Shown one piece after another: positions 5,403-33,070 of a DNA stretch of 64,000 nt (position 1 is the stretch's first letter; every line of letters begins with the position of its first letter). Below the pieces are notes generated by a model that was not told the DNA's origin, did not search any database, and worked only from the letters and a program-made list of their open reading frames with translations. Source of the DNA: Loktanella sp. M215. GTDB lineage: Bacteria > Pseudomonadota > Alphaproteobacteria > Rhodobacterales > Rhodobacteraceae. Location of the stretch: contig NZ_WMEA01000005.1 of the NCBI RefSeq assembly GCF_021735925.1, positions 62,001 to 126,000 of the forward strand, written 5' to 3'. The position numbers and the translations under genes were made by a program.

Positions 5403-5650
5403 GATCGAAGCCAATCTCTTGGCTTGAGCCGTACCAAGGTTGACCGCCTGAAACCCCCTTTCCCGGAAGTGGCACCCTGTGCAGCGCGCGAAAGCCGTTG
5501 AAGGGCTTGCGGAGACGTCTACTGTCGCCGCCATGATGAACCGGGATCACATGCGCGCTTTTTTTCGGCGCGCTGCGGCGGGTAATCCCCCCCGGAACTA
5601 AGGGGATGCGGACGTAGAATTTTCTCAGCAAGATACCTGAGGAGAATCTG

Positions 5651-6467
5651 ATGAAGATGACGAGATTTAACGAACCCCAGATCCTTGCGATTTTGCGCCA
5701 AGCTGAAGGCGGTGTGCCTGTGGCTGAGCTGTGCCGTGAGCATGGCATGAGCTCGGCGTCCTTCTACAAGTGGCGCGCGAAGTATGGCGGCATGGATGCG
5801 TCCATGATCAGCCAGATGAAGAGCCTTGAGGACGAGAACCGCCGGCTGAAGCGCATGTTCGCGGATCTGAGCATGCAGGCTGATTTATTGAAGGAAGCCC
5901 TTGGAAAAAAAGTGATTGGGCCATCTCAGCGACGCGAGATGGCCGCCAAGGCCGTAAAACACCGAGGAGTCAGCATCGCGCTGGCGTGCCGGGCGTTTGG
6001 CGTGAGCGAGACGTGCTATCGCTACAGTCCGTTGCTCAGCGATGAGAACGAGATGATCGCTGATCTGCTCGTCGGCCTCACCGAAGCCCGCAAGACGTGG
6101 GGATTTGGGCTGTGTTTCCTTCACCTGCGCAACGTGAAGGGGCACCCGTGGAATCACAAACGTGTCTATCGGATCTACTGCGCCCTGGAGTTGAACCTTC
6201 GGATCAAGCCGCGCAAGCGCCTGAAGCGGGACGTGCCGGACGCTCTGGCCGTGCCCGAGAGGCCGAATGTGACCTGGTCGATGGATTTCATGGCAGATCG
6301 GCTTGAGGACGGTCGGGCCTTCCGGCTGCTGAACGTGCTGGATGACTTCAACCGCGAAGGTCTGGGGATCGAGGTAGATTTTTCTCTGCCGGCCGAGCGG
6401 GTCATCCGGAGCCTTAACAACATCATCGAGTGGCGGGGCAAGCCCAAGACCATCCGCGTGGACAACG
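5651..6467 (+). pseudogene. IS3-family transposase, 5' part (OrfA plus start of OrfB)
   Basis: It encodes the helix-turn-helix of OrfA ([16 protein letters not shown], then [15 protein letters not shown]), a leucine-zipper-like region ([19 protein letters not shown]) and the beginning of the rve integrase domain ([11 protein letters not shown] with the first catalytic Asp; KTIRVDN with the second). OrfA and OrfB parts lie in one frame; no programmed frameshift is needed. After Asn-272 the frame runs into the IS110 insertion and stops at 6496. Joining 5651-6467 to 8099-8370 restores an in-frame protein of about 362 residues, so the insertion is recent enough that both halves are undamaged. Confidence 0.85.
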
Positions 6468-6677
6468 TCCTAGCTCGGGAACAAAACGCTGTTTAGGGCG
6501 TCAGATCACATGGCATCCGAGCTACCGGATACCTTTTGAATTGTTGCCCAGGCGGGCTCCGCCGTCAAGAAGTGGTCTCTCCCATAGCAAATACAGGGTC
6601 GGCCACGATGCCGCCCTCACCGTCCTTAAGACGAGATCCTAAATCCCAAGCGGAAGGCCCGAACATTATCTACGAGG

Positions 6678-7961
6678 TCAGGAACCTGCCTCCACGGCTC
6701 TACAGAGAGGGGTCCTTCCGCCTGGGCTCGTCCCCTCGAAGAAGGGACGATAGGGTTCGCCGGATTTGATCACGGCGTGAATGGTGCGGGCCATCTTTGC
6801 GGCGATGGCTGTGTAAGCCTTGCGGCGCAAATCCGGGTTGTGACGATCTTGCGCAATGTAACGCTCGAACTTGTCGCGGAAGCTGTTGGCCTTCTTCATG
6901 ACCGCCGTCTGCCCTGCAAGCCACAAAGTGCGGCGCAAACGGGCGTTGCCGTATTTGGAGATCTTGCTTCGACCGCGGAACATGCCGGACTGGACGGTTG
7001 CCAGATCCATGCCGCAAAACTTCAGAAACTGCCGGTGATGACGGAAGCGGCGCAGGTCACCGGTCTCGGCCGGGATCGTCAGGGCGTTGATCGGCCCGAT
7101 GCCGGGAATGGTGCGCAGCAGCAGGTAATCGGGACGATCGCCGAGCAGTTCGACGGCACGGCCTTCGATGGCATTGCGTTGGCGGATCAGGCTTCTGCCT
7201 TCGGCCAGCATCATGCGGAACATCCTGATGGCGTCAGAATCCGGCGACACGGGCAGCCCCGCGGAAGTCTTCGCCGTCTCGTAAATATCTGACAACATGA
7301 GGGTCTTCTCGACCTTGCGTCCAACCACTTCCCATGCCGCCTTGGTGAACGCATCCTTGGTCAGGGCAGATATCATGTGTGGAGACGGGAACATCTCGAG
7401 GAAGGCCAGGAACCAGTCGGTGCGCGAGCTGCGGTGGAAGCGGTCGGCCTCGGGAAAATAAAGTGGCAGATAGTGGGTCAAAATCCGATGCCACAGCTCG
7501 GTCTTGGACCGCGACACCGCATCATGAGTCTTGGACAATTCCTGAATGTCATTCGTACCGGCGACCATCGGGTCCTGGAAGATCTGCACCGCGCCGATTT
7601 GCAGCATGTGCAAGATGACTTGCGCATCCTTCGGATCATTCTTGTCCCAGCTGTTGTGTAGCGCCTCGCGTGTGCGGGCGAGGGCGACCGAGGATACCAG
7701 CTTCAGGTCGAACCCGGCGACGCCGAGATGATACATCAGCACACGGTGATAGTTGCCGGTGGCCTCAAACCCGATCCGGACCGGCAGGCCATATTCCCGC
7801 AAGATCGCGATCAGGCGCATGAAGTCGTCGGTGGAATTGGTGATCGTCATGCGCCGCCGCCGCGTCTTGCCCGGGACGGCAATCAGCACCTCGTGCCGGT
7901 GTTTGGAAATGTCGATGCCTACCAGAACGCGGGCATCCGAAGTATGTTCAACCTTGGCCAT
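6678..7961 (-). CDS. IS110-family DEDD transposase
   Basis: 427 residues from the ATG at 7961, chosen because AGGAGA lies just upstream; a longer frame exists but runs through the leader hairpin. The N-terminal DEDD RuvC-like domain begins VLVGIDISKHRHEVLIAV and includes EATGNYH and DKNDPKDAQ; the C-terminal Transposase_20-type domain has LLRTIPGIGPINALTI, FLKFCGMDL and the SKISKYGNARLRRTLW segment with the serine region. IS110 enzymes are serine-dependent, RNA-guided recombinases in the members studied. The gene looks intact, so the element may be active. Confidence 0.9.
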   Translation of the reverse strand: MAKVEHTSDARVLVGIDISKHRHEVLIAVPGKTRRRRMTITNSTDDFMRLIAILREYGLPVRIGFEATGNYHRVLMYHLGVAGFDLKLVSSVALARTREALHNSWDKNDPKDAQVILHMLQIGAVQIFQDPMVAGTNDIQELSKTHDAVSRSKTELWHRILTHYLPLYFPEADRFHRSSRTDWFLAFLEMFPSPHMISALTKDAFTKAAWEVVGRKVEKTLMLSDIYETAKTSAGLPVSPDSDAIRMFRMMLAEGRSLIRQRNAIEGRAVELLGDRPDYLLLRTIPGIGPINALTIPAETGDLRRFRHHRQFLKFCGMDLATVQSGMFRGRSKISKYGNARLRRTLWLAGQTAVMKKANSFRDKFERYIAQDRHNPDLRRKAYTAIAAKMARTIHAVIKSGEPYRPFFEGTSPGGRTPLCRAVEAGS

Positions 7962-8095
7962 GGCCGGTCTCCTCTGTGGTGTGGTTCGCAAAACCACCAT
8001 AGAGACCCGAGACCCGGTTATGGCCGCCTGCTGCGCAATTTTGGAGGCTGCGCAGGCGGCCATAACCTTGAACGGCACTTCATTCCCAACATGCT
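7962..8095 (-). other. IS110 5' leader with hairpins (candidate bridge RNA region)
   Basis: In IS110-group elements a structured non-coding RNA is encoded between the element end and the transposase start. This leader holds a perfect 15-bp stem (8016-8030 with 8053-8067, 22-nt loop) and a smaller 6-bp stem (7981-7986 with 7992-7997). CTGCGCA occurs twice, at 8031-8037 and 8048-8054. I could not identify convincing target-guide complementarity to GACAACGGCCCGG by eye, so the RNA assignment is an inference from position and structure only. Confidence 0.35.
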
Positions 8096-8098
8096 ACG

Positions 8099-8370
8099 GC
8101 CCGGAATACATCAGTCATGCGCTGCTGGAATGGGCCGAAGAGCAGGGCATCGCCTTGGCCCACATACAGCCAGGTCAGCCGCAACAGAACGCCTACATCG
8201 AGCGCTACAACCGCACGGTCCGGCATGAATGGCTGGACCAATACATCATCAATAGCATCGAGGAGGCCCAGCACTTCGCCACCCAGTGGCTCTGGACTTA
8301 CAACAACGACCGCCCGAACATGGGCATTGGCGGCATCACACCTGCAATGAAACTGAAAATGGCTGCGTAA
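8099..8370 (+). pseudogene. IS3-family transposase, 3' part
   Basis: It continues the frame broken at 6467: GPEYISHALLEWAEEQGI, then PGQPQQNAYIERYNRTVRHEWL with the catalytic Glu of the DDE triad in YIERYNRT, and the conserved WLWTYNNDRPN end. It has no start of its own. The right inverted repeat of the element follows. Confidence 0.85.
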
Positions 8371-8410
8371 GTTCTACGACCAAATCCCGTTAAAAATGGG
8401 AGGATTACCG

Positions 8411-8854
8411 GATGGCATCATCGCGATGCCCCTCCTGCATGGGAGCTTCGCGCACCTGATGGCCAATACGCCGCCGCTGCTGGTGATGGGTGGACTGCTG
8501 GTGGCAACAACCACGCGAGCCTTGCTGCCGGTGAACGCCGTGGTGATCGGCTTCGGCGGCGGTCTCGTGTGGCTGTTCGGCAGCTCGGCCATTCATATCG
8601 GAGCGTCAGGGCTGGTCTTCGGCTGGTTCGGCTTCCTCGTGGTGCGCGGCCTCGTGGATCGCTCGCTGATCACGCTAGGCGCGGCACTGGTGGTCGGTGT
8701 CCTCTATGGCTCCATTCTCTGGGGCGTTCTTCCGGGCCAATCCGGCGTCTCGTGGGAGGCGCATCTCTTCGGCGCCATCGCGGGCGCGGCCGCTGCAGTC
8801 CTTGTCCGGACGCATGTCCATGCGCCACGCTTGGGCGACGTCGATCTGGAATGA
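8411..8854 (+). pseudogene. Rhomboid-family intramembrane protease, N-terminally truncated by the IS3 element
   Basis: About 148 residues remain. Rhomboid signatures are clear: HGSFAHLMANT (His-x3-Asn of the second core segment), HIGASGLVFGWFG (Gly-Ala-Ser-Gly with the nucleophilic Ser) and WEAHLFGAIAGA with the catalytic His. The first membrane segment and the cytoplasmic N-terminus are missing because the IS3 right end lies at 8409. The open frame now begins with the IS-derived codons at 8396; an internal ATG at 8426 could also be used. The missing part is not found on the left side of the IS, consistent with a deletion at the insertion. Confidence 0.8.
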
Positions 8855-8997
8855 AGCAGTACGCCCGACGTGGTCGGTCCGTAGCGGACTTTGCCGATTT
8901 AGTCAGGTGCTGCGACGCAGCTTCACCAGAGCGGACGCTGTGCAAAATTCGGTAATACTGACAATATCAAAAATTCAGGCGAACCCTAAAGGCCCAC

Positions 8998-10461
8998 TCA
9001 ATCCTTCGACACTATGTCAAACACAAGCTTGTTGTAGTTTGAAGCTTTGGCAAAGTAACCCAATCTGTGACGGCGGTCGATTCTATTCAATCCTCTGTGG
9101 CCGACCGCGCTAGACCAGGACAACCAATCGGATTGCCCAGCACCCAAATGGGCGTCGCGAAGCTCTACTAATCCGTACCTCAAGTCGGGTATTTCGAGGA
9201 GTTTAGCTCTGGAGATCGATGTGGCGTTTGGATGATTGTTCAGCCTGTCTATGATCTCTGCCGCTGAATTGGTGTTCAGAAGCCGATCTTCAAGAATGTG
9301 GGTCAGCCAAAAAAGCTGGAACTCGTAGATCATCGCGTCATTGTCACGAAGTAGTTCCAAGACGAATGCGGCTATGGCTTCCTCGTCTTCCGCCTCACGG
9401 CAAAATGAGTGAATATTCTTGAATAGGTGTGGGAAGCGACGCGCTATGTCTGCAAGACGTTCAATCGCTTCTTCGGCATGCTCTGCCATCAACGCCAGCA
9501 CGAGCTCTGCGTCCTCTTCTTCGATATCATCTTGTTGTAGTAGGCCTCGCAGAAAACCCATTTCTTCATCCGACAAATCCTGTTCGACTTCGACCTCTTC
9601 ATCGGAAATACCATCATAGTCGGTGATAACTACACGCCGTCTTTGGAGTAGCTGTATCCTTACGTCTTCGATCGCATCCTCAAGTTCAACGTTCTCCCGC
9701 ACGCCGTCACTGGTTTTGTTTGGATTCAGTGAAAGGCCTTTCTCACCCAACAAGCGCTGGATCGTAATGAAGTCATGACGAAGATCACGCCGCGAGTCGG
9801 AGAAAAGTACAAAATCGTCCATAAATCTAACAACCGCATTGCTGCGCAATCCGTGAAACTGTTCGACAAAACGGAGAAAATCATTGCCTATCATTTTCGT
9901 TGGGTAAATGCCCTGTGGCAGACAATCGACTGACCGCCCCGTGTTTATTTCCCGAAGAAACTGACCAAACGCCTGGTAATCCTGTTCGGATGCTCCGGTT
10001 CTGGACAACCAAGAAACGAGGTCATGGTGGTAAACTGAGTTGAAATAAGCAGCGACATCGAAGCTCAAGCTGTATCTGAATTGATCTCGATACGCAGCAA
10101 TGGCCCCCTTATATCCTCGATATGATCCCGAAGGATTGAGTGGCTCACCATCTTGAAAGCGGTAGCCAAAATGCTTCTTGTGCTCGTGGTAGGGCGCTCT
10201 GAAGCGGGTTCTATTTCGTAAGACGAGATCGTAAATAAAATACTCCGCCACAGGGTCCAGTTTAACGGTTCGCCTCAGGTGAAAACCGGGCTTGTCGGCA
10301 TAAACCCTGGTTTGCGAACGGAATGAAAAAGATTCCTGATCGGGATCAAGGCAACGATTCAAAAACTCGGCAATCTCGGCATGACCATTTTCGATCAAGT
10401 AGCGGTTTGTCGATATCGGGAAAAGCATTCGACGATAGTCAGCTGAGTAGAAATCGAACAT
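8998..10461 (-). CDS. Abi/UG-like reverse transcriptase in a SIR2-HerA operon
   Basis: 487 residues from the ATG at 10461 with TAGGAAG upstream. RT motifs in order: motif A YSLSFDVAAYFNSVY (catalytic Asp near residue 135), motif B LPQGIYPTKMIGNDF (about 182-196), motif C RFMDDFVLF (Asp-Asp near 215-216) and motif D GLSLNPNKTS (about 242-251). An acidic stretch follows (about 264-300), then a mainly helical C-terminal region of about 190 residues ending with WLSWSSAVGHRGLNRIDRR. No maturase, integrase or msr/msd-like hallmark is seen, so it resembles defence-type Abi/UG RTs rather than group II intron or retron RTs. It starts 21 bp after HerA and is certainly co-transcribed with it. The DNA is visibly more AT-rich than the flanks. 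Confidence 0.8.
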   Translation of the reverse strand: MFDFYSADYRRMLFPISTNRYLIENGHAEIAEFLNRCLDPDQESFSFRSQTRVYADKPGFHLRRTVKLDPVAEYFIYDLVLRNRTRFRAPYHEHKKHFGYRFQDGEPLNPSGSYRGYKGAIAAYRDQFRYSLSFDVAAYFNSVYHHDLVSWLSRTGASEQDYQAFGQFLREINTGRSVDCLPQGIYPTKMIGNDFLRFVEQFHGLRSNAVVRFMDDFVLFSDSRRDLRHDFITIQRLLGEKGLSLNPNKTSDGVRENVELEDAIEDVRIQLLQRRRVVITDYDGISDEEVEVEQDLSDEEMGFLRGLLQQDDIEEEDAELVLALMAEHAEEAIERLADIARRFPHLFKNIHSFCREAEDEEAIAAFVLELLRDNDAMIYEFQLFWLTHILEDRLLNTNSAAEIIDRLNNHPNATSISRAKLLEIPDLRYGLVELRDAHLGAGQSDWLSWSSAVGHRGLNRIDRRHRLGYFAKASNYNKLVFDIVSKD

Positions 10462-10482
10462 CAATACTTCCTACTATTTTGA

Positions 10483-12294
10483 TCAAAAATCTTCGGTCAA
10501 TGGGGCTGCTTCGGTTTTGCCCCAAAATTCCTGATACTTCGGGCCGTGGCTTTCTGGTTGCTGACCTTTTTCGGGTTTACTCATCATGATCGGCAACGGT
10601 GCGGGTAAATCGGGGCCGACAATGATCGCCTCGCCTTGTGATAGAGATGGGATAAAGGCGGCGGCGCTGCGATCAAGATCACCGCATGCCCTTTCAATGG
10701 TTTCCCGGTCTCGCTCATTGGTTAGCCGATGTACAAAGAGGGTTCCAAGTTGACTGAGAACATCCTGTGGCACATCTCTGGGACGCTGCGTCGCGACAAC
10801 GGTGGTCAGTCCGTACTTCCTGCCTTCCTTGGCGATGAGGCCAAAGGCATCGAGGTTAACGCTATTCTGGTCATCGCCGACAGACCGGCCAATAAACTGG
10901 TGAGCTTCATCCAAGAAGCAAACAAGCGGATTTTGTCGAAAACGCCCCTGCCGTGCGATGCCAAGCAGATAGCGTCCAATAGCGTTCAGTAGCAACTCAC
11001 GCGCATTGTGCTTAAAGCTCACGTTTTCGAATGAAAGCACCAAAGCCCTCGCATCTGGATCATCAAGAAACCCCTCGATTTCTTCGCATATATCCAAGCC
11101 TTCTTGAGAAAAAAAGCATGACATATCAGGAGAGTTCAAAAGCGTCTCGATCCGAATAACCAAGGTATTGTTGTAACCTACTTGCTTCGGGTCCACCCCG
11201 CCAAATGTGCCGTCCGTGTTAGCCGGGAACAAACACTCTTTGCCAATTTGGTTGGAAAGCACTTTGAGATCGAAGTCACAGTCATCTGCCGCCAACTGAT
11301 CGGCTAGCATCAGCTGAGCGCGACCAAGCGGTTTCCTCTGTTGGTTTGCTTTCGAAACAGTTCTGTTCTCGTCAAGGTGGATGAAGCCGACTGTTTGGTC
11401 GTTGTGTTGAACTTCTATTCGAAGAGCATCGCTGCCTTCGACGGCATGCTGCGGAAACCGCACTGGGTCTGCCAACAGCAGTCGAGCCAGTCTCAAGCTG
11501 ATAATCGCACTGCGAAGAGTGGGGCCTTGGCTTTGCCCGGTTGGTCTGAGCAGGGCGTTCAAGTCAAGCTCGGACAGCTTCTCACTCGGAAACCGCGCCA
11601 AGCGGCCTTCAGCGGCTTGGTCATTTGAGAACTCAAACTCCCGTGCGGTGGCTACCTTTCCTGCGAACTCTCCCGTTGGATCGAACAGAATACACTTGCC
11701 ACCTATACGCACGATCTCATTGACGAGGCGGGACACTGTCCAGCTCTTCCCCCCGCCTGTCGCACCAAATACTCCGCAATGACGACCGAACAATTTCTCC
11801 GGCGGAATGCTGAGGGCGGCATCATCCAGCCCAGATAGGTTCCCCAGCTCGACGAGCAACGGTGCACTGTCTCCCTTCATATCGCCTTCCAAGGCATCCT
11901 TGATGGAATTGGACAACGCTCCGCCTTCTGCGAGGTAGACTCCATCACCGACCCTTGGCTGCGTGTTGATACCGCGCGTCACTTTCCGAGTGGTCTTGCT
12001 GACGGTCGCCAACAATTGAACACGCCCCTGCGGCTCTACCGTGGGATCGGTTTCGATCTGGTGCTCAAGGACGTTTCGTTGCCTGTCTGGAATGCCAACC
12101 TCCGTCACGCGTCCCAAGATCGCTGAGCGATCGCAATCGACAAACACGAAATCACCAACTGAACCCTTTGCCAGTCCACGCCGCCCGAGGGCTGCAAGTG
12201 CATTCGGCAAGGTGAGTTCTACAGCACTGGCCGTCACCCGTGTGACCGTTCCGATGCGCTTCGACGGGTCGATCAGGGAGGCAAGCTCGCTCAT
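10483..12294 (-). CDS. herA: HerA-type hexameric ATPase of a SIR2-HerA defence operon
   Basis: 603 residues. The N-terminus (about 1-130) reads as a HAS-barrel (GTVTRVTASAVELTLP). Walker A GVFGATGGGKSWTVSRL is at about 174-190, Walker B is PLVCFLDEAHQFIG, and sensor/arginine-finger-like segments are VVATQRPRDVPQDVLSQ and HRLTNERDRETIERACGDL. HerA proteins are FtsK/HerA-superfamily DNA translocases that form hexamers; in SIR2-HerA systems they assemble with the SIR2 NADase. The ATG overlaps the SIR2 stop by ATGA, indicating translational coupling, and the RT gene follows at 21 bp. All motifs look intact. Confidence 0.9.
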   Translation of the reverse strand: MSELASLIDPSKRIGTVTRVTASAVELTLPNALAALGRRGLAKGSVGDFVFVDCDRSAILGRVTEVGIPDRQRNVLEHQIETDPTVEPQGRVQLLATVSKTTRKVTRGINTQPRVGDGVYLAEGGALSNSIKDALEGDMKGDSAPLLVELGNLSGLDDAALSIPPEKLFGRHCGVFGATGGGKSWTVSRLVNEIVRIGGKCILFDPTGEFAGKVATAREFEFSNDQAAEGRLARFPSEKLSELDLNALLRPTGQSQGPTLRSAIISLRLARLLLADPVRFPQHAVEGSDALRIEVQHNDQTVGFIHLDENRTVSKANQQRKPLGRAQLMLADQLAADDCDFDLKVLSNQIGKECLFPANTDGTFGGVDPKQVGYNNTLVIRIETLLNSPDMSCFFSQEGLDICEEIEGFLDDPDARALVLSFENVSFKHNARELLLNAIGRYLLGIARQGRFRQNPLVCFLDEAHQFIGRSVGDDQNSVNLDAFGLIAKEGRKYGLTTVVATQRPRDVPQDVLSQLGTLFVHRLTNERDRETIERACGDLDRSAAAFIPSLSQGEAIIVGPDLPAPLPIMMSKPEKGQQPESHGPKYQEFWGKTEAAPLTEDF

Positions 12295-13727
12295 GCGCCA
12301 TCGCCCTCGCGCAGCTTCTCAAGCCGATCCCGCAAGAGCTGGCGATCCGTCTTGCCCGATATCATTGGGAGAGCATCGGCAAGGTCTTCGAAACGACCGT
12401 TCAGCATAGTGATGCGCGTATCGCCCTGCTGCACAAGACGCGCAATCTTGCTTTGGTATTGGCGTTGTCCACCTAGATCGAGGTCAATTTCCTGCACGTC
12501 TTCATCGAAGAGCTTTTGGTGCTCTACGAACCCACGATCACAAAGCACAAGGCGAAGCGACAGGTTCGTTTCGATGGCTGACCAGATCGGGGCGCTGATG
12601 TGATCATCAGCAAACCCGAAGCCTGAGACGATCAACGTTGTATCAGGTTCCCGCAACGCTGCCTGCAAGGCCGCGAACATGTCGAGATAGGGGCTTCCGA
12701 ATGCTTCCTGATATTTCGAAGACCGAGGATAGATCAGGACTGGCTTGCGGTCCTCGCCGGGGGCATCGACGCTTCGGATAACGACTTCATCGGAACGTCG
12801 CCGCCAATCCACTGACCCGTGCAGCTTGTAGAGGTGAAACACGCCGTCGAGGTAGTCGGCCTTCGTGCCCGATGCGGCTCGCCGCACGATGTCATGGTCG
12901 AAGTGATCACGGTTGAACCGCTGTTCGGCACTGTGGGAAAAACCGTCGATCAGCACGACACCGAGACGTAGACCTGCCGTCTCAACACACAGATCGTAAT
13001 TCGTGGTGAACAGCTTCACTCTGGGCTTTTCCGGAGATCGGCGGGCGAACTTCTTCAAGAATGCCAATTGCGCGGGCAAATCCGTGCCCGCGCCAACAAA
13101 ACCTACCTTGCCCAAGATCGTGTTCTCAGCAACGCGAACAAACTCGATCAGCTCATCCAACCAAGGCCCATCAGCGAAATCAGGGTCGTTTTTCGCCCGA
13201 ATATTGAGCAGCTCAATTTGCATTTTGCAGAGGCTCAACAGGCTTTCGATATCTCCGGCCTTCTGCTTCCCCTCGCTGTCGTTCTGCGGCAGGCCACCCA
13301 TTACTTTCTTTGCGAGATCGTCAAACTCTTTGTGGTCGACCAAATTTCCTTCGGAAACGGCATCTCGCACAGCATGCCACAGATCGCCCATCCCCGGCGC
13401 ATTCGGCCCGCCTTCGTTCTTGGCCGAGAAGGACGCCCCAGACCCCAACAGCACCACGACATTGGTTGAATGCAGCGCCGCCAACAGAGCCTCGTCGACC
13501 TGATCCTTGCATCCGGCCTTGGGTTTCTTGCTGGGGTCGTCCGGGTCTTCCTTCTCACCCTCCCAGCGCAGCCACTTGCCGTCGCGCGTCAACAGGCGCA
13601 GCAACTCCTTTTTTCCTACCAGCTCTCCATCCCAAAAGTTCTTCAAAGGCTTATCCCCTTCGATCCGGCGGCACATGATGTAGGGCGACGCGGCTTGCCA
13701 ACCCGAAGTGTTCTGGTATTGTTCCAC
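12291..13727 (-). CDS. SIR2-like NADase of a SIR2-HerA defence operon
   Basis: Up to 478 residues. The SIR2_2 domain shows VVVLLGSGASF (nucleotide-binding glycines, about 91-100), LFTTNYDLCVE (catalytic Asn near 243), LYKLHGSVDWR (catalytic His near 303) and IVSGFGFADDHI. Such proteins hydrolyse NAD+ on phage sensing and, with HerA, cause abortive infection. The start is uncertain: the GTG at 13727 lies inside the adjacent IS1595 element, and the ATG at 13676 lies 7 bp from the presumed IS end; neither has a good ribosome-binding site. The native N-terminus or promoter may have been removed by the insertion. Confidence 0.85.
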   Translation of the reverse strand: MEQYQNTSGWQAASPYIMCRRIEGDKPLKNFWDGELVGKKELLRLLTRDGKWLRWEGEKEDPDDPSKKPKAGCKDQVDEALLAALHSTNVVVLLGSGASFSAKNEGGPNAPGMGDLWHAVRDAVSEGNLVDHKEFDDLAKKVMGGLPQNDSEGKQKAGDIESLLSLCKMQIELLNIRAKNDPDFADGPWLDELIEFVRVAENTILGKVGFVGAGTDLPAQLAFLKKFARRSPEKPRVKLFTTNYDLCVETAGLRLGVVLIDGFSHSAEQRFNRDHFDHDIVRRAASGTKADYLDGVFHLYKLHGSVDWRRRSDEVVIRSVDAPGEDRKPVLIYPRSSKYQEAFGSPYLDMFAALQAALREPDTTLIVSGFGFADDHISAPIWSAIETNLSLRLVLCDRGFVEHQKLFDEDVQEIDLDLGGQRQYQSKIARLVQQGDTRITMLNGRFEDLADALPMISGKTDRQLLRDRLEKLREGDGA

Positions 13728-14749
13728 CCATGCCAGCCAGATGGAAAAACGACAAACCTATGTCCCGCCAGGCGTTCGACGCCCGGTTTTCCGACGAGGA
13801 AGCGTGCTCGCATTATCTGGCGGAGCATCGTTGGCCCGAGGGCTTCGTCTGCCCCTCCTGTGGGACGTGCAAGGGCTGGCCACTCAAGCGAAATCGCGCG
13901 ACTTGGGAGTGCGCCGGTTGCGCGCGGCAGACATCCGTGACGGCCGGCACGGTGATGCATAGCAGCCACTTGTCGTTGCGAACGTGGTTCCTCGCCGCGC
14001 ACATCATCACCAGTCATTCCAATGGCATGTCAGCACTGCAACTTCAGGCCCAACTTGGCCTCGGCAGTTACAAGACAGCTTGGCTCCTCTTACAAAAGCT
14101 GCGGCGGTCCATGGTCAATCCTGAACGCAATCCCCTGAAAGACCTCGTTGAAATCGATGAGACAGAGATGCCGTTCCGGTCCCGGCATGATCCACCGGAT
14201 CGGCCAAAGGGCGGTCGCAGCCCCGTCGGAAAGATGTTTGTCGTCTGTGCCGTCGAGCTATCAGATGACGGTCAGCCGCGCCGGATCAGGATGAAGCACA
14301 TTCCCGACGGTGCGGCGAAGACGCTGCACGGGTTCATTGGTCAGGTCGTGGAACCCGGCGCACACATCATCACGGACGGCTGGCTCGGTTACGAAAATCC
14401 TCCGGCAAACACGCACGAGGCGAAGGTCGTCAGCGGCAAGAAGGCACACGAGATCCTCCACTGGGTCCACCGCGTGTTCTCCAACCTGAAAGCGTGGGCA
14501 AAAGGTGTCTTCCACGGCCTCAGAAAGCGCCATCTGCAACGCTATCTGGACGAATTCGTGTTCCGCTGGAACCGACGGCGACACATGCGCAGCGCATTCG
14601 ACACGCTGCTCGGGATCGGTGTTGGTCTCGGTCCCGCGACATATCGCGATTTCGTTGAGCTGCGGGCCTGAAGGCCCTCGTTCCCCACAAAAGCCGCCAC
14701 CCGTAAATCAGCGAAGCACTCAAAACTGATGCGGGCAACCTCTCAACCC
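13683..14749 (+). mobile_element. IS1595-family insertion sequence
   Basis: The transposase gene occupies nearly the whole element. Proposed ends are GGGCGACGCGGCTTGCC at the left (13683-13699) and, inverted, GGGTTGAGAGGTTGCC at the right (14734-14749); the repeats are imperfect, and no clear 8-bp target duplication is visible, so the boundaries are approximate. The length of about 1.07 kb fits the family. It separates the SIR2 gene from whatever upstream sequence it once had. Confidence 0.6.
13730..14671 (+). CDS. IS1595-family (ISXO2-like) transposase
   Basis: 313 residues. The N-terminal zinc ribbon has FVCPSCGTCKGWPL and WECAGCARQTSVTAGTV, the helix-turn-helix region follows (GMSALQLQAQLGLGSYKTAWLLL shortened here to its core), and the ISXO2-like catalytic domain has LVEIDETEMPF with the first acidic residue, HIITDGWLGY with the second, and FVFRWNRRRH near the end. 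This order matches IS1595 transposases. The gene appears intact. It is divergent from the SIR2 gene, with the two 5' ends overlapping within the left end of the IS. Confidence 0.85.
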   Translation: MPARWKNDKPMSRQAFDARFSDEEACSHYLAEHRWPEGFVCPSCGTCKGWPLKRNRATWECAGCARQTSVTAGTVMHSSHLSLRTWFLAAHIITSHSNGMSALQLQAQLGLGSYKTAWLLLQKLRRSMVNPERNPLKDLVEIDETEMPFRSRHDPPDRPKGGRSPVGKMFVVCAVELSDDGQPRRIRMKHIPDGAAKTLHGFIGQVVEPGAHIITDGWLGYENPPANTHEAKVVSGKKAHEILHWVHRVFSNLKAWAKGVFHGLRKRHLQRYLDEFVFRWNRRRHMRSAFDTLLGIGVGLGPATYRDFVELRA

Positions 14750-15619
14750 AACGGCGCGAAGTTCTGCGCCGCGTCAACATGTAGGCCGACCGGACTGAAA
14801 GGGATAAGCCTTAGTTCTTCAAGTCTTCCACCTTAGAATGCAATTCTAGGGTGAAGCTAGATTAGTTGTTCAGCCGGGTAAATCATCCATGAATCATCGC
14901 TCACCAAGGTGTTCGGCGCATTAGGGCCGCAAGCGCACCAATGACGGCTTTTGAAGTGGAGCTTTTTCGGCTTGCACTAGCTGTGAATGACGACTTCCCG
15001 CCCATCACGTCGAATGCTTGGACAAGTAATCCGTATAGTCGGCAGCGGCGTCGCCAGCACATCAACCTTGGGCTAAGCCTTGCGGCCTCCCCAGCTCGGC
15101 TTCGCGTGTCGCAGGGGAGAACGGCCCTTCGGTCCGTCGCGCATTCGGCCATGCGGCCTCACCGCGGCGTCGCACCCGGCATCCCGGTTTGCCCGCCTCG
15201 CGAGCACGTCCCTCCCCGGCCGCTCCGCCGGATTGCGCTCTGGTCTGTTTTGGCCCGAGGCCAAAACGATCCCGCCGCTCCATCCGTCTCCCGCGTCCGG
15301 TCGGGCCGTTTGCCTGCTCGGGTCGGGCAAACCTACCGTCAAAACACACACACATGAGTGCGGAAGCATATCCTCCGGATGGCCCCCAAATCAGCCCGCG
15401 TCAAGGATCGCAAAACTTTTCAGCGAGGGCGGAGCGGGTGGCTTGGGGCGGTCCCGTGCGTGAGGGTGCGCGTGTGTCGGGTGCTGCGCGCGGAAAACTT
15501 TTGCGCCCGGCAAGCCGGCGGCTGCGCCGTCCCTGACCCGGGCAGATTCGGAAACCAGGCATTCGGCCATGCCCCCACACTCACGTGGTGGCCTTGCAAC
15601 CGAACACTGGAGACCAGAC
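14750..15619. other. Intergenic region of about 870 bp without a convincing gene
   Basis: Contains the 9-bp palindrome at 14831-14851, then a GC-rich stretch with hairpins: GTTTTGGCC / GGCCAAAAC at 15247-15267 and GTTTGCC / GGCAAAC at 15308-15332. A 14-bp direct repeat GCATTCGGCCATGC occurs at 15141-15154 and 15559-15572. Open frames here look like GC-rich shadows (Arg/Pro/Ala-rich). It may be the leader of the DUF2493 gene. Confidence 0.5.
14831..14851. promoter_or_regulatory. Inverted repeat, possible operator
   Basis: CCTTAGAAT-GCA-ATTCTAGGG forms a 9-bp stem with one G-T pair, in an AT-rich patch just outside the right end of the IS1595 element. Before that insertion it would have lain directly upstream of the SIR2-HerA-RT operon, so it may be the displaced control region of that operon. 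Confidence 0.3.
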
Positions 15620-17811: not shown

Positions 17812-18405
17812 ATGTCCCGAACAAAACGCCTGACAGAGATCGAGAAGATGCAGATCGTCCGCGAGGCCGCGGAGGGTGTGCCGACGTCCGAGCTGGCCGA
17901 GCGTTTCGAGGTCACATCGCGGGCCGTGCGCTACGTCCTGAAAGCCGATGTCGAGCGCCAGACGGATGCCGCGATCCCGGTCTCAGCGGTCAGTGTGAAG
18001 GTCACGGCTGCGGAGCTTGCGGCCCTTGACGCGGTGTTGGCGAAAGCGGGGATCGAGAGCCGGGCCGAGGGGCTGCGGCGGCTCATTCAGGCCGCAGGCG
18101 GGGTGTTCGTTCCGGACGCGCAGTTGGCGGCAGAGATGGCGCGCTATCGCGCCTCGCTGCACGAGGTCGGCAATGGGGTCGCGCAGATCGCCAAGCAGAT
18201 GACGCAGGCCAACCGGCGGGGGCAGGGGGCCGTGGGCGGCACGAGTGCCGAGTTCACCGAATTGCGCCTTGCGCAGATGCGCGGGCTGGCGCGGTTCATC
18301 CTGGATTCCGCTGACGAGATCGATCTGCTTCTGCGCCGCCGTCGCGATGGGATGCAGCTGCAGGCCACGGCCGCGCTGAGGGAGTTTGCCCATGCGGCTG
18401 AATGA
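17812..18405 (+). CDS. MobC-like relaxosome accessory protein
   Basis: 197 residues from the ATG at 17812 (GGGGG upstream); a longer frame begins earlier but in the AT-rich promoter region. The N-terminus holds a helix-turn-helix (TEIEKMQIVREAAEGVPTSE, then AERFEVTSRAVRYVLKA); the middle has a ribbon-helix-helix/MobC-like stretch (SVKVTAAELAALDAVLAKAG) followed by HEVGNGVAQIAKQMTQANR, which is typical of MobC. Role: oriT binding and support of the relaxase. It overlaps the relaxase start by 14 bp, so the two are translationally coupled. Confidence 0.75.
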   Translation: MSRTKRLTEIEKMQIVREAAEGVPTSELAERFEVTSRAVRYVLKADVERQTDAAIPVSAVSVKVTAAELAALDAVLAKAGIESRAEGLRRLIQAAGGVFVPDAQLAAEMARYRASLHEVGNGVAQIAKQMTQANRRGQGAVGGTSAEFTELRLAQMRGLARFILDSADEIDLLLRRRRDGMQLQATAALREFAHAAE

Positions 18406-20725
18406 TGCCGTCCATGCCGTCACGGGCGAGGTCTTCCGGGATGGCTGGAGCCGCGTCCGGGGCTCGATGCAGGGGCTGCATGTTGCCAAGCAGACCCAGC
18501 TCGCGCGCGCGTCAGCTGGGCATCGGCCAGCGGTCTTCAAGGCGATCCGGGGCGGGGGCACGCATACCAAATCGCAGCTTGCAAACCAGCTCGACTACCT
18601 CACCACCAAGTCCACCCATATCGTCGACAGTAGCGGGTTCCTGGATGGCAAGGCGAAGCTCGAGGCGGGCGACATCAAGGACCTCACCGAGCGCTTTGCC
18701 AAGCGGTGGGGTGCGGGCTTCAAGCCCAAGCTGGGCCAGACGACCCATATGCTCATGTCGTTCCCCATTGGCACGCGCGGGGAGGATGTGCGCGACATCG
18801 CAACCGATGTGGCCGAGCGGTTCTTCCAGACTGATGAGGGGCATTTCGATTACATCATCGCGGTGCATGAGGACCGCGATCACCCCCATGCGCATCTGGT
18901 GCTGAACCGCCGCTCGCAGGAAGGCGAGTTCTTCTTTCTGGGGCGCAACCACCGCTTCAACTATGACGACTTCCGCCTCGCCATGGTCGAGGAGGCCGAG
19001 AAGTATGGCGTGCGGCTGGAAGCCACGCGCCGGGTGGATCGCGGGGTTGTGCATTACCCAGCCCGGACCAGCGAGGTCTACGCCGCGAAAGAAGAGGGTC
19101 GCGCGCCCCGCGAGCGCGAACGCGTGGGGACCGACCTAACCCGGACGCTGGCGGAGATCGCCAACACCAGAACCGTCTACCATTCGCTTGCTGCGGAGGC
19201 CTCCCGGGAGGCCCGCGAGGATATTGCCGCAGCACTCTTCCGCGCGGGCGAGGTGCTGGCGCATGGCGGGCAGGTGGACCGAACAGGAGATGTGTATATG
19301 GCCGAGGATCAAAGCTTCGAGGATCTCAGAAGCCTCTATGCGGAAAAGCTCGCGCGGGTGCAGGGCATGATCGCCGAGAAGTCTGACGCGGAACGTCCCG
19401 TGCTGGAAAAACGTCTCATCGAGATCCAGACGCAGGTCCAGCACATGCAGCCTCTCGGTTTGCGATCATCCACGCTGTCAGAGACCCCCTCGGAAGGCGG
19501 GATCTATTCCGAAGCCAATATCGACGCCAGCCAGCGCGAGCGTCTGGCAGAGCCCGATCTGAGATCGCGCATTGACGCGGCACTACACGGCACCGGGATC
19601 AGCACATCGGAAGTGGTGGCCCGGATCGAGACGGGGGCCTCGAGCGCCGCGCTGGAGCATCAATGGATCGCAGATGATCTCTCCAAGGTGGCCGAAGCGC
19701 GGGATCTCAACCTCGAGCGCCGCGCCGATCTGGAACAGGCGCGAGACATTCTCAACGGTGTGCATGTGGAACTTGGCACGCTGTTGGAGCGCGAGAACGT
19801 GCTGCGCCGGGATGGTGTCGTGGAGGAGGAAGCGGTCGGCGAGCGGTTCCACTATCACGAGGACGCGGTGCGGGCGATGGAAGGGACAATCCGTCAGGAG
19901 ATGCGCGCAGACGGTCTGACAGCGCAGCAGATCGAGGACCGGGATTGGGAGGTTGTATCGCGAGCGGAGCGCCGGATCGAGACGGAGCAGCGCACGTATC
20001 TCGAAGCACACCCGGACCTGCTCGCACGCCCCGGCGATGTGATTGACCGGTCTGAGCCCTACAGGGAGACCGTCACCGATGCGGCCCGCGCCAGCGAGAT
20101 CACCAGCGAGGTCGACCGCATCATGGAGGGACGCGACCTCCGCACGCCTGTTGCAGATGCTGTCACGGATGACTTGCGCGCGCGCTATCCGGACATGCCG
20201 TCCCACCTCGCCCGCGGGCTCGGCGCGACCTATGCGGCCGTCGTCGAGATCCGCGACACGGAGGTCATCAATCAGGTCCGCCGCGAAAACGAGTTGCGCG
20301 ACGGGCTCGGTTCTGGCACGCGCGACGCACTCCTCGCAGCCCGCGGTGAAACTGCTTCGCAGTCTGGCCGTGCCGACCGCCTAGCAGACGAGATTGCGCG
20401 TGTCCTGGACCATGAGCGGGCCGGGGAATTGTCCGCGCCCTTCGAGACCGAGGCGGAGCGGGACGCCTTTCGCGACGAGATCGCGCGGGTGCTGGACGTT
20501 CGCCAACGCGATCGGCTCACATCCGGCGATGCCGATGCGCTGGACAAGGTTCTCGAGGACCGCCTCGACCGGCTCTATGTCGCCAAGGTCTATCTGCAAT
20601 CGGATGCAGCAACGGCCAACACGGAGGCCCTGCGCCAGGTGGTCGATGATCTTGCCGACACCGAATATGAAAAACACCGCACCGCTGACGTGGATGGCGA
20701 GACCGAGCGGGGTCAGGTCCATTGA
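18392..20725 (+). CDS. VirD2-type MOBP relaxase
   Basis: 777 residues from the ATG at 18392 (GGAG upstream), inside the end of the MobC-like gene. The relaxase domain is N-terminal: SQLANQLDYLTTK has the candidate catalytic Tyr, THMLMSFPIGT follows, and HEDRDHPHAHLVLNRR is the metal-binding His motif (about residues 160-175). The remaining about 500 residues are coiled and charged, typical of the long C-terminal tail of alphaproteobacterial relaxases that carries the secretion signal. It nicks oriT and pilots the strand through the T4SS encoded at 27.7-39.3 kb. Confidence 0.9.
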   Translation: MRLNDAVHAVTGEVFRDGWSRVRGSMQGLHVAKQTQLARASAGHRPAVFKAIRGGGTHTKSQLANQLDYLTTKSTHIVDSSGFLDGKAKLEAGDIKDLTERFAKRWGAGFKPKLGQTTHMLMSFPIGTRGEDVRDIATDVAERFFQTDEGHFDYIIAVHEDRDHPHAHLVLNRRSQEGEFFFLGRNHRFNYDDFRLAMVEEAEKYGVRLEATRRVDRGVVHYPARTSEVYAAKEEGRAPRERERVGTDLTRTLAEIANTRTVYHSLAAEASREAREDIAAALFRAGEVLAHGGQVDRTGDVYMAEDQSFEDLRSLYAEKLARVQGMIAEKSDAERPVLEKRLIEIQTQVQHMQPLGLRSSTLSETPSEGGIYSEANIDASQRERLAEPDLRSRIDAALHGTGISTSEVVARIETGASSAALEHQWIADDLSKVAEARDLNLERRADLEQARDILNGVHVELGTLLERENVLRRDGVVEEEAVGERFHYHEDAVRAMEGTIRQEMRADGLTAQQIEDRDWEVVSRAERRIETEQRTYLEAHPDLLARPGDVIDRSEPYRETVTDAARASEITSEVDRIMEGRDLRTPVADAVTDDLRARYPDMPSHLARGLGATYAAVVEIRDTEVINQVRRENELRDGLGSGTRDALLAARGETASQSGRADRLADEIARVLDHERAGELSAPFETEAERDAFRDEIARVLDVRQRDRLTSGDADALDKVLEDRLDRLYVAKVYLQSDAATANTEALRQVVDDLADTEYEKHRTADVDGETERGQVH

Positions 20726-22734
20726 GCGCCTCCACGGGAAAAGCGCGGATCGCAACAGGGGTCTTGCTGGTGACGCTGGTGACCGCCGCCATGGGCTATA
20801 CCTTCGCCTCGGCGGTGCTGACCTACCAGGATCTCGGCTTCGGGGCCGAGATCGACTTTGCCTATATCGCGCAGAACTACATGGCGATCCTCGATCGCCG
20901 CCCGGAGGACGCCCAACTTATTCACCTGATCATCGGCAGCTTCGCCGCCGCCGGCCTCATGCTGAGCCTCGCCCTCTCGGGGTCCGCCCTGACACGCTTT
21001 GGCCAGACCCATTGGCAGAGCGCGCGCGAGATGAAGGCCAATGGGTTCTTCGGGGCGCCCGGCACCGGGTTCATCCTCGGCAAGCTGGGGCCGCCGGGCT
21101 CCCGCGCCAGCTACATCTGCTCCAAGGTCTTCCCCCATGCGCTGATCGTGGCGCCCACGGGCCGCGGCAAGACCACGGGCTTCGTCATTCCGAACCTGTT
21201 GACCTGGAAAGGCTCCGCCGTGACGCTCGATGTGAAGGGCGAGTGTTTCGAGGCCACGGCCCGGCACCGCGCAGCTCAAGGCGACAAGGTCTATCGCTTT
21301 GCCCCCACCGATTGGGAGGGCAAGCGCACGCATCGCTACAACCCGCTCCTGCGTATCTTCGAGCTGAAAGATCCCGCGCGCCAACAGATGGAATTACAGC
21401 TTCTGGCGACGCTCTTCCTGCAAAGCGACAATGACCGGGTGCAGGGCCTGCTCAAAGGCGGGATCGATCTCTTCGTGGCGGCAGGTCTGCTGGCGTTCCA
21501 GCGCAAGCGCCCCACCTTGGGCGAGATCTATCGCATCGCGGCCTCCGGAGGGAACAAGCAGAAGGAATACTTCGCGCGGGGCCATGAGGTCGACAACAGG
21601 GCCGCCAAGCTGATCTTCACCCGGCTGGCCTCAACCAACAACGACACGCTGACCTCATACGTCTCGCTCCTGATGACCTCGGGGCTCGATCAATGGCAGA
21701 ACCCGGCCATCGACGAGGCGACGGCGGTCTCGGACTTTGATTTCCGGACGATCCGCAAGAAGCCCTTTTCGGTCTATCTCGTGGTCCAGCCGCTGATGGT
21801 AAAGCCACTCGCACCGCTGATCCGGCTGTTTTTCTCCGATCTCCTCTCCGCCATGCAGGAAAAGGACCCGGGGCCGGATGAGCCCTGGCCCGTAATGATC
21901 ATGCTCGACGAGTTCAATCGCCTCGGAAAAATGCCGATCGTGGTCGAGAGCATCGAGACGCTGCGGACCTATCGTGGTCACCTCGCTGTGGTCACCCAAA
22001 CCATTCCCGCCCTCGATGAAATCTATGGCGAGAATACCCGGCGCGCCCTGCAGGGCAATGCCGGCGTGAAGCTCTACCTGACGCCCTCGGATGAGAAAAC
22101 GGTCGAGGAGCTCAGCAAGGCTGTCGGAAAGACCACAAAGACCGTCATCACGCGGTCCCAGTCCATCGGCAAGAACCCCTTCGAGGGCCGCAGCCAATCG
22201 ACCCGGACTGAAGAGAGCTCGTTGTTGCCTGAAGACGAAGCGCGCCGTCTGCCCCTCGACGAGATTGTCATGGTGATCGATGCCCAGATGCCGGTCCGGG
22301 CAAAGCGGATCCAGTATTTTGATGATCGGCTGTTCAAGGCGATCCACGCGGCACAGACGGGCGAGTTGCCGTTTCCGAAGCCGGGGGGAGGGGGATCGCA
22401 GGGCAATCTCCCGTTGAGCGTGCGCGCCATGCCGATGACTCCGCCTTCGAACGGACCAGGTGGGTCTGACGCCGTTGTGGAGACCGCACACCAAGATGCT
22501 GGCAGCCAAACGTCAAAGCAAACCGACGTCGCTCCAAAAAAGACCGCGCCTGTCGTTCAAACCGTTATCGCCGAGGAACAGCGCCAGATGGAGATGGATT
22601 TTGGAAGCCAGGTCGCCGATGCAGAGGCAGCGAGCGTAGCTGATGAGGCGCAGATGCGTTCTGCAGTCGATGGCTTGGAGGACATGGAAGCGATGCTGCG
22701 AGAGGAGGATGGTGAAAGGCTGGTTGCGCGATAG
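20722..22734 (+). CDS. virD4: VirD4/TraG type IV coupling ATPase
   Basis: 670 residues with a TTG start overlapping the relaxase stop. Two N-terminal membrane segments (about 10-28 and 74-90) are followed by Walker A ALIVAPTGRGKTTGFVIPN and Walker B WPVMIMLDEFNRLG; DVKGE and the TQTIPALDEIYG region also match TraG/VirD4. It links the relaxosome to the VirB channel at the inner membrane. The C-terminal about 120 residues are Gln/Glu-rich and probably variable. Together with the upstream genes it forms the DNA-processing operon. Confidence 0.92.
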   Translation: MSASTGKARIATGVLLVTLVTAAMGYTFASAVLTYQDLGFGAEIDFAYIAQNYMAILDRRPEDAQLIHLIIGSFAAAGLMLSLALSGSALTRFGQTHWQSAREMKANGFFGAPGTGFILGKLGPPGSRASYICSKVFPHALIVAPTGRGKTTGFVIPNLLTWKGSAVTLDVKGECFEATARHRAAQGDKVYRFAPTDWEGKRTHRYNPLLRIFELKDPARQQMELQLLATLFLQSDNDRVQGLLKGGIDLFVAAGLLAFQRKRPTLGEIYRIAASGGNKQKEYFARGHEVDNRAAKLIFTRLASTNNDTLTSYVSLLMTSGLDQWQNPAIDEATAVSDFDFRTIRKKPFSVYLVVQPLMVKPLAPLIRLFFSDLLSAMQEKDPGPDEPWPVMIMLDEFNRLGKMPIVVESIETLRTYRGHLAVVTQTIPALDEIYGENTRRALQGNAGVKLYLTPSDEKTVEELSKAVGKTTKTVITRSQSIGKNPFEGRSQSTRTEESSLLPEDEARRLPLDEIVMVIDAQMPVRAKRIQYFDDRLFKAIHAAQTGELPFPKPGGGGSQGNLPLSVRAMPMTPPSNGPGGSDAVVETAHQDAGSQTSKQTDVAPKKTAPVVQTVIAEEQRQMEMDFGSQVADAEAASVADEAQMRSAVDGLEDMEAMLREEDGERLVAR

Positions 22735-28742: not shown

Positions 28743-28748
28743 GGATTG

Positions 28749-29153
28749 CTACCAGTTGCCAGCTGCTACGCAGATTGGCATGGCGGCGCGGCGCAGTTCA
28801 TTTGCCTGTCGTCGGTATTCGGACGTCGCTTCTACAACGTCCCAGTATTTAGATGAAGCATAGCGCTCTGTGTAGAAGCGTACGGCGTCCTCCCAAGTTG
28901 GATACCGTGTGGGACAGTCGCAGTTTTGCGAGTCTACGACGCGCTCCATGCTTTGAGCCCGATATATCTGTTGGATCAAAAGGCGCTTATAGGATTCGCG
29001 CACATTGATGTTCTGCATCCACTTCGGCTCAGGTGGCTGGTCTGGGCAAACATTTGGGTGGTTGTCGAGCGTCGGGATCAGGTTCCGCTCGGCTACGCCA
29101 GCAGTTGTGCCAAAGATCAAGAGCAGGCCAGCGACTGCAATAGCCCGTGTCAT
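28749..29153 (-). CDS. Small exported protein of the virB operon
   Basis: 134 residues. A signal peptide (MTRAIAVAGLLLIFGTTAGVA) is followed by a short mature domain with four Cys (NHPNVCPDQ, NCDCPTRYP, PICVAAGNW) and a conserved-looking YPTWEDAVRFYTERYASS. It overlaps the DUF4177-like gene by ATGA and is 6 bp from virB6, so it is part of the T4SS unit. It could be a periplasmic accessory or a pilus-related factor; I do not recognise a named family. Confidence 0.7.
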   Translation of the reverse strand: MTRAIAVAGLLLIFGTTAGVAERNLIPTLDNHPNVCPDQPPEPKWMQNINVRESYKRLLIQQIYRAQSMERVVDSQNCDCPTRYPTWEDAVRFYTERYASSKYWDVVEATSEYRRQANELRRAAMPICVAAGNW

Positions 29154-29338
29154 TCCGATGCCGCCTTCATTGTACCAGTCTCACGCTTCAAGAAAGTGGT
29201 GTAGCCGTAGTCGCCGGCTTCGGCGGTGATAACCTCCCACCCTTCCGCGCCGCGCTCATTCAAAGCACGTCGCACCTCGTCGTAGTCCTTTTGCTTCTTC
29301 ACCGGAAAGAACAGGATGTCATATTCAAAGGTTTTCAT
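29150..29338 (-). CDS. DUF4177-like small protein
   Basis: 62 residues with the pattern FEYDILFFPVKKQKDYDEV, then LNERGAEGWEVITAEA and a final FLKRETG, matching the DUF4177 layout (beta strand, LNELGAEGWELV-type core, beta strand). Starts within the ATGA overlap with virB11 and ends in the overlap with the exported protein. A role in the T4SS is suggested only by this tight position. Confidence 0.65.
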   Translation of the reverse strand: MKTFEYDILFFPVKKQKDYDEVRRALNERGAEGWEVITAEAGDYGYTTFLKRETGTMKAASE

Positions 29339-30321: not shown

Positions 30322-30325
30322 GGGC

Positions 30326-32397: not shown

Positions 32398-32399
32398 CG

Positions 32400-33056: not shown

Positions 33057-33070
33057 TCATGCCCCCGCTC

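Follow-up and report, generated by a model that had tools for sequence, protein, structure and literature searches.

A Drt5-family reverse transcriptase as recurrent third cistron of a SIR2-HerA operon in Loktanella sp. M215

We analysed a stretch of 64,000 nucleotides (nt) from Loktanella sp. M215 (contig NZ_WMEA01000005.1, positions 62,001 to 126,000; hereafter the window), in which three open reading frames (ORFs), all on the minus strand, encode a SIR2-like protein, a HerA ATPase and a reverse transcriptase (RT; Table 1). A first-pass annotation, made from the sequence alone, had placed these ORFs on one strand with a 4-bp overlap and a 21-bp gap, and their positions and domain matches bear this out: the SIR2 and HerA genes overlap at 12291-12294, and the gap between the HerA stop and the RT gene spans 10462-10482, the RT gene probably starting at ATG 10461 rather than TTG 10464. 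It had also described the operon as visibly lower in G+C than its surroundings. The drop is clear for the RT gene (0.484) and only small for SIR2 (0.565), with HerA at 0.545, the whole window at 0.598 and the flanking stretches at 0.628 and 0.639. Because the same three genes stand together in eight further loci, the trio exceeds what chance would bring together. Promoter and terminator scans of the locus gave no score above those of shuffled sequences; the single weak terminator-like hairpin, at 8979-8997, likewise scored no higher than chance.

The first-pass annotation had noted that Abi/UG RTs are separate defence enzymes, and profile comparisons place the RT in the family Drt5 (UG16). The protein matches PF00078 (RVT_1; E 5e-11) and covers model positions 1-484 of 484 of the NCBIfam model NF041750 (Drt5) with 688.6 bits, the curated cut-off being 550; in PADLOC it scores 687 bits as Drt5, the runner-up family Drt8 reaching 106 bits. 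By these matches it is a full-length member of the antiviral Drt5 family. Its FMDD motif (residues 213-216) and motif A (SFDV at 133) are both intact. MDD is present in 48 of 48 solitary Drt5 proteins and in 9 of 9 RTs linked to SIR2-HerA, and among the positions conserved in at least 90% of the 48 solitary rows one alone differs in all nine linked RTs. The profile scores rule out a retron RT (NF038233, 14.6 of 235 bits) and a group II intron maturase (TIGR04416, 33.8 of 300 bits), with no Rfam match for either. Nor did Rfam return a match for a non-coding RNA (ncRNA) partner up to E 1 in 8400-15600. Pairwise comparison of solitary Drt5 loci, which detects sequence and not structure alone, found that in 7 of 9 pairs flank conservation did not reach further than about 50-100 nt from the gene; the exceptions, L057-L060 and L009-L045 (L numbers denote loci), have whole neighbourhoods in common. 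Drt5 membership predicts that the RT synthesises DNA and serves in phage defence. As a separate observation, Drt5 stands beside the same small gene in L057, L059 and L060, one Pseudomonas genome and two viral contigs, and is likely prophage cargo there.

The upstream pair is equally recognisable. SIR2 matches PF13289 (SIR2_2; E 3e-10), and HerA matches PF01935 (DUF87; E 5e-16) and PF05872 (HerA_C; E 3e-9); the best PADLOC models score 272 bits for SIR2 and 488 bits for HerA (PDLC04103). HerA carries Walker A as GATGGGKS at residues 177-184, and SIR2, numbered from the start codon TTG 13646, carries GSGAS at 68, TTNYD at 214 and LHGS at 275; these motifs, like the FMDD of the RT, we take to be catalytic. 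Both proteins match chains of the same solved structures (8j4u, 8wld and 8yhx). Against the curated equivalogs NF042942, NF042943 and NF042944 the scores were 107.5 of 500 (SIR2), 128.9 of 800 (HerA) and 90.0 of 850 bits; since all lie far under their cut-offs, the two genes are the same kind of pair from another branch of the family. We infer NADase activity for the SIR2 protein of this operon.

The SIR2 gene had been given a 5′ end at 13727, which overlooked an insertion and is very probably wrong. The first 27 codons of the ORF starting there are the end of an IS1595 element, and close relatives align from codon 28 onward only. In an alignment read by eye, the relatives' SIR2 start codons coincide with TTG 13646 (GTG in L083), and in L084 an in-frame stop just upstream excludes an earlier start. 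By this alignment, TTG 13646 is the likely native start and yields a protein of 451 amino acids (aa). The element has 23-nt terminal inverted repeats (13646-13668 and 14790-14812), is flanked by the 10-bp direct repeat AGTTCTTCAA (13637-13646 and 14813-14822) and encodes its transposase at 13730-14671 (PF12762, PF12760). By BLAST, L002 (Thalassovita taeanensis) and L003 (Puniceibacterium antarcticum) lack the insertion between window positions 13646 and 14813. The L002-type leader persists beyond the element from 14813, and the native leader is displaced by 1.17 kb. The SIR2 coding frame is still open, and a purine-rich stretch from the insertion sequence (IS) end lies directly 5′ of TTG 13646. 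With the native leader pushed off, expression of the operon in this strain may be low or altered.

The first-pass annotation had treated recurrence of the RT behind HerA outside the window as decisive, and the search found it. The RT lies directly behind SIR2-HerA in nine loci (the window, L002, L003, L004, L006, L063+L095, L064, L096 and L086), in a fixed gene order and with a spacing of 21 bp or a 1-bp overlap. A Drt5 alignment scan of 84,980 species genomes gave 57 loci. Five have an RT of at least 93% identity, and SIR2-HerA is directly upstream in four (L002, L003, L004 and L006); in the fifth, L005, the RT is truncated and both SIR2 and HerA are missing. The remaining 52, at no more than 56% identity, show SIR2 in none, 8 of them having less than 3.3 kb upstream and so being unable to tell; L022 alone among the 52 has a HerA-like match, partial and 24% identical. 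SIR2-HerA is beside Drt5 in none of four viral contigs (one with too little upstream sequence). Plasmids contain Drt5 in 4 of 72,556 records, with SIR2-HerA alongside in 3 of the 4. Conversely, of 24 plasmid records in which the HerA match covers 80% or more of the protein, three have Drt5, and SIR2-HerA stands without Drt5 in all 10 plasmid neighbourhoods opened at up to 47% identity. It also does so in L085, L108 and L109. Within this sample, SIR2-HerA often lacks the RT, and Drt5 often stands apart from SIR2-HerA.

Among 394 genomes of the window's family, a close RT occurs in three (G000, G261 and G239), each time behind HerA, and three further genomes have Drt5 at 52-56% with no HerA match. 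Two overlapping samples of 394 genomes contain nine genomes with HerA of at least 57% identity over most of its length (that of G797 is cut by the contig): three have the RT, two a metallo-β-lactamase (MBL)-fold gene (G163, G778), one lies at a contig edge (G377) and three have neither (G128, G774, G797); for G774, G778 and G797 the judgement covers stretches of 5 to 18 kb, the one from G774 extending 821 bp beyond HerA. In class-wide samples the two families occur together in the window's own genome alone (this HerA model in 3 of 385, Drt5 in 2 of 385). Among protein clusters, contigs of equal size suggest two further RT-HerA links, P0003/P0143 (8548) and P0002/P0157 (4140555). For the 19 RT clusters P0004-P0022 (68-85% identity), no longest contig equals in size any contig of the 120 HerA clusters listed; 10 of the 19 exceed 16 kb, which speaks indirectly against linkage. 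No HerA relatives were found in viral contigs by tblastn, and the RT had no match in phage records.

In an RT tree of 93 rows, the nine linked RTs form one clade (SH-aLRT 89) within a clade of 30 (SH-aLRT 100) whose other members are L005 and 20 proteins of unknown context; the tree omits eight loci with fragmented matches below 350 residues (L046, L047, L053 to L056, L058 and L073) and ten re-fetched duplicates. The linked clade is nested among Drt5s found without SIR2-HerA, and the profile scores do not put it with intron or retron RTs, the placement that the first-pass annotation had named as refuting its idea. The linked loci all come from one bacterial family as far as named. By gene neighbourhood and tree, the RT recurs as a third cistron, though within a single young lineage only.

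The third position is not reserved for an RT. In L083 and L107, which belong to different genera by their taxon codes, SIR2 is 91-92% and HerA 78-79% identical to those of the window and the gene order is the same, and the third gene encodes an MBL-fold protein of 434 aa (PF00753, E 5e-7; 427 aa in L107). In PADLOC this protein weakly resembles LmuA (E 1e-13) and Avs1a (E 8e-7), and the two MBL-fold proteins are 91% alike. A possible third case joins the P0141 HerA to the P0243 MBL protein (8822), on the basis of contigs of equal size. Plasmids hold MBL homologues in 19 records, all below 60% identity. Judged from these neighbourhoods, the third-gene slot is exchangeable and is filled by Drt5 or an MBL-fold enzyme. 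Many other Roseobacter genomes also contain relatives of this MBL-fold family, for most of which no contig of equal size occurs among the listed HerAs.

HerA itself is a mosaic of conserved and variable parts. Across 11 close HerAs, residues 1-200 are 92-100% and residues 421-590 are 82-100% identical, and residues 225-420 fall to 40-53% between three types: type A in the window, L002, L003, L063, L004 and L064; type B in L006 (RT), L083 and L107 (MBL) and L084; and type C in L086 (RT). The RT occurs with all three and is thus not tied to one variant. A similar split runs through SIR2 residues 101-200 (Table 1). The HerA tail after residue 592 varies in another way. All eight RT-linked HerAs that are readable to the end carry L[TI]E[DE], a pattern that P0143 and P0157 also fit; the MBL-linked HerAs of L083 and L107 end in DVID, and P0141, ending in DVFK, was classed as other. 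Despite their different tails, L006 (RT) and L083 (MBL) are 95% identical both in block 225-420 and in residues 421-590. We tabulated tail classes over the 71 of 133 HerA rows with an N-terminal identity of at least 84% (one row being of no block type), with patterns defined after viewing the tails and rows that are related to one another; over blocks A/B/C the counts are 11/4/3 for RT-like, 10/3/6 for MBL-like and 15/6/12 for other tails. Every tail class is seen over every block type, so tail and block are not tied. Read from these alignments, the SIR2 block, the HerA block 225-420, and the HerA tail with the third gene vary by exchange.

The operon has moved as a unit between conjugative-plasmid, chromosomal and Tn7-like settings. 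One plasmid backbone is common to the window (on a contig of 178,868 bases), L002, L003 and a Roseovarius pelagicus plasmid (L063, L095), the last typed as conjugative. L004, L006, L086 and the Phaeobacter inhibens plasmids have other surroundings than the window's; in the P. inhibens plasmids, TnsA/Mu-transposase genes flank the operon on one side and a TniQ gene on the other. DNA homology to these other-setting loci stops near window positions 8874-8946 and 13640-13647, the operon borders; in L086 it ends earlier, within a broken SIR2. A candidate fourth gene was rejected: the HSDR_N-NACHT gene beside SIR2 in P. inhibens is absent from L004 and L006 by BLAST, and the upstream ORFs of L002 and L003 look unlike it. 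The annotated overlap of that gene with SIR2 arises because the SIR2 start is annotated over-long. The gene (L064:3713-6589, L096:2712-5588) encodes a 958-aa HSDR_N and NACHT/STAND protein upstream of SIR2-HerA-RT, inside the Tn7-like arrangement of TnsA, Mu-type transposase and TniQ.

The RT is under strong constraint. Relative to the window, its dN/dS is 0.060 (L064), 0.047 (L004), 0.031 (L006), 0.038 (L086), 0.078 (L003) and 0.150 (L063), and the constraint holds at synonymous distances of 0.84-1.09; the value of 1.14 for L002 comes from a handful of changes only. The HerA dN/dS for L064 is void because of an internal stop in that gene. Relatives often have a broken SIR2 or HerA (L086, L064, L096, L065 and L088). 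Three loci keep an open RT beside such damage: L086 with a truncated SIR2, P. inhibens M624 with a stop codon in HerA, and P. inhibens M627, where the HerA frame is broken. The HerA of P. inhibens 2.10 stops at residue 298 beside an IS481 transposase, with no RT match, and L088 holds fragments only. All three genes are open in 5 of the 9 linked loci (L002, L003, L004, L006 and L063+L095). L064 and L096 differ by two changes. The frequent damage fits a costly NADase with the RT as the part that lasts, though the lesions are young.

Table 1. Features of the SIR2-HerA-RT locus and of the alternative third gene. Coordinates refer to the window unless a locus is named.
Feature	Coordinates	Strand	Evidence
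RT gene, Drt5 (UG16), 487 aa from ATG 10461	8998..10461	-	NF041750 and PADLOC Drt5
RT catalytic Asp-Asp, FMDD motif, residues 215-216 from ATG	9814..9819	-	motif search
HerA ATPase, 603 aa	10483..12294	-	PF01935, PF05872, PADLOC HerA PDLC04103, Walker A
HerA hypervariable block, residues 225-420, three allelic types in close relatives	11035..11622	-	alignment of relatives
HerA C-terminal tail, residues 593-603, differing between RT-bearing and MBL-bearing loci	10486..10518	-	tail comparison
SIR2-like NADase gene, 451 aa from likely native TTG	12291..13646	-	PF13289; start from relatives
SIR2 variable block, residues 101-200 from TTG	13047..13346	-	40-48% identity in L004, L064, L084
IS1595-family element at SIR2 start codon	13646..14812	+	PF12762, PF12760, repeats; site empty in L002, L003
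Original SIR2 leader, displaced by IS; end coordinate approximate	14813..14900	-	matches leaders of L002, L003; more weakly other loci
3′ flank common to L004, L064, (shorter) L086 and L006	8874..8997	-	DNA homology to loci of other settings
MBL-fold third gene	L083:7176-8480; L107:9177-10460		PF00753

Several other genes of the window deserve mention. An IS110-family transposase and remnants of other transposases (6678-8078) lie within an insertion at 5581-8409 relative to L002 and L003, where the site is empty. A YAcAr/SLOG-family protein (PF10686; 15569-16549) is encoded next to the operon and occurs in the R. pelagicus plasmid too, there as a DUF2493 gene. Relaxase, coupling protein and TrbL/TrbI/TrbE-type conjugation genes at 18386-22734 and 27663-37675 are partly collinear with the R. 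pelagicus plasmid. At 24820-27053, on the same plasmid-like contig, a patatin-like phospholipase gene (PF01734) overlaps a SMODS/CD-NTase gene (PF18144) in a CBASS-like pair.

RTs and partner genes share one operon in DRT3, in other multi-gene DRT systems and in retrons with effectors, whereas the window locus holds no known ncRNA family. With the two-gene SIR2-HerA system Nezha/Gao_19, the window shares the adjacent SIR2-like and HerA genes, the 4-bp overlap, the motifs and the solved-complex matches, but it has a third cistron and sits far under the equivalog cut-offs. With DRT type 5 it shares the full-length model match, FMDD and motif A, and differs from the 52 genome loci and four viral contigs described above in having SIR2-HerA beside Drt5. 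Because HerA ends 21 bp upstream of the RT and nine loci are linked, the locus is not a plain single-gene DRT5 system. The SIR2-HerA-MBL operons (L083, L107) have the same order and a near-identical core, with an MBL-fold gene in place of the RT. Passages of PMC7699616 equate DRT type 5 with UG16, a family that Gao et al. 2020 named among the defence RTs, and a 2026 commentary lists Drt5 as lacking an established mechanism (PMC13213688). Passages from four sources handle SIR2-HerA and DRT as separate systems (PMC12948488, PMC10952713, PMC9122126, PMC11206119). Those of a further source describe proteins called 'DRT5S' and 'DRT5L', purified as class 3 DRTs with template-free DNA synthesis, class 3 being defined by nitrilase or phosphohydrolase domains (PMC13275509). 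We do not carry this result over to the window RT because those passages give no UG number or accession and the window RT shows neither domain. The first-pass annotation knew of no system with this composition, and the open-licence literature searched yielded no description of such a three-gene system either.

Building on the observed anatomy, recurrence, third-gene exchange and insertion, we lean towards reading the locus as a modular two-arm defence operon with an accessory third-gene slot. SIR2 and HerA would form a NAD-depleting complex of the Nezha type with HerA as the ATPase scaffold, and the HerA block 225-420 would be the probable site of trigger or anti-defence adaptation. The slot behind HerA would take different enzymes, here Drt5, which most likely still performs DNA synthesis of its own and would contribute a second arm. 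The RT would be co-transcribed and probably translationally coupled with HerA and would not be needed to switch on SIR2. NADase activity, DNA synthesis and independence of the arms are thus predictions of the modular reading. In its favour, an MBL-fold gene takes the place of the RT behind near-identical cores (L083, L107), and the RT is strongly constrained yet hardly different from solitary Drt5s. The 12:6 SIR2-HerA complex and phage-triggered NAD hydrolysis on which it draws are described for other systems in passages of PMC11559045 and PMC12948488. As for the proposal of the first-pass annotation that the RT is a functional third component, a recurrent and tightly spaced third cistron stands. 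Its further suggestion, that a nucleic acid made or sensed by the RT loads HerA and licenses NAD depletion, is a hypothesis. Speaking against a strict requirement are RT-less pairs, some of them in close relatives, MBL replacement, loci with an intact RT beside a broken SIR2 or HerA, and the two-gene pair of Vibrio cholerae, which according to passages of PMC11559045 defends without any RT and needs both genes.

Several observations weigh against this modular reading. One stable clade with fixed order and spacing over synonymous distances near 1 fits a functional partner equally well. No solitary full-length RT of the close clade was found, the one unlinked member, L005, being truncated. The HerA tail and the third gene change together, which is how a docking site would behave. 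The loci in which an intact RT accompanies a broken SIR2 or HerA are too recent to serve as evidence that the RT is maintained in its own right. These points, above all the clade-specific linkage with its tight spacing and the tails of L006 and L083 that differ behind 95% identical sequence, leave some room for an integrated three-component system, which we regard as a credible though less probable account: the RT would dock on the HerA tail, the RT or its DNA product would signal infection to HerA and gate the SIR2 NADase, and the MBL-fold enzyme would be its equivalent in the sister operons. The tail, however, adjoins the third gene, so that recombination swapping the gene would bring the tail along without any contact, the tail patterns were defined post hoc, and SIR2-HerA pairs elsewhere work without a third gene in the passages cited above (PMC11559045). 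Extended to a general accessory slot of Roseobacter-type bacteria, in which the HerA tail docks an exchangeable enzyme (Drt5 or MBL-fold) that relays an infection cue to HerA as a nucleic-acid signal and so triggers NAD depletion, the idea becomes rather doubtful.

At the other extreme, Drt5 may have landed once behind SIR2-HerA, the cassette then being copied within Roseobacter-type bacteria without functional relation, as in defence islands. The single origin of the linked RTs, their confinement to one family as far as named and the existence of both parts alone would agree with such packing. We nevertheless hold it to be quite improbable, as the trio has remained linked through recombination of the HerA and SIR2 blocks and through changes of setting, constraint on the RT is strong at the synonymous distances given above, and sister operons have filled the third position with another gene. 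A different matter is whether the operon of this strain is a remnant silenced by IS1595, which concerns expression in one strain and not the nature of the operon. The element at the SIR2 start codon with its direct repeats, the displaced leader and the frequent SIR2 and HerA breaks in relatives make this a serious prospect, if somewhat short of an even one, given three open reading frames, intact RT and HerA motifs and the purine-rich stretch upstream of TTG 13646.

An operon that ties Drt5 to a well-studied NADase-ATPase complex offers a handle on the mechanism of Drt5, through the question whether RT activity alters NAD depletion or phage range. The swap of RT and MBL-fold genes behind an almost unchanged core provides a natural experiment that asks whether the third gene acts as effector, trigger or passenger. 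The HerA block, which varies independently, may be where specificity for trigger or escape resides. Should the docking of an accessory enzyme on HerA prove true, a reverse transcriptase or a hydrolase would become the trigger of NAD depletion.

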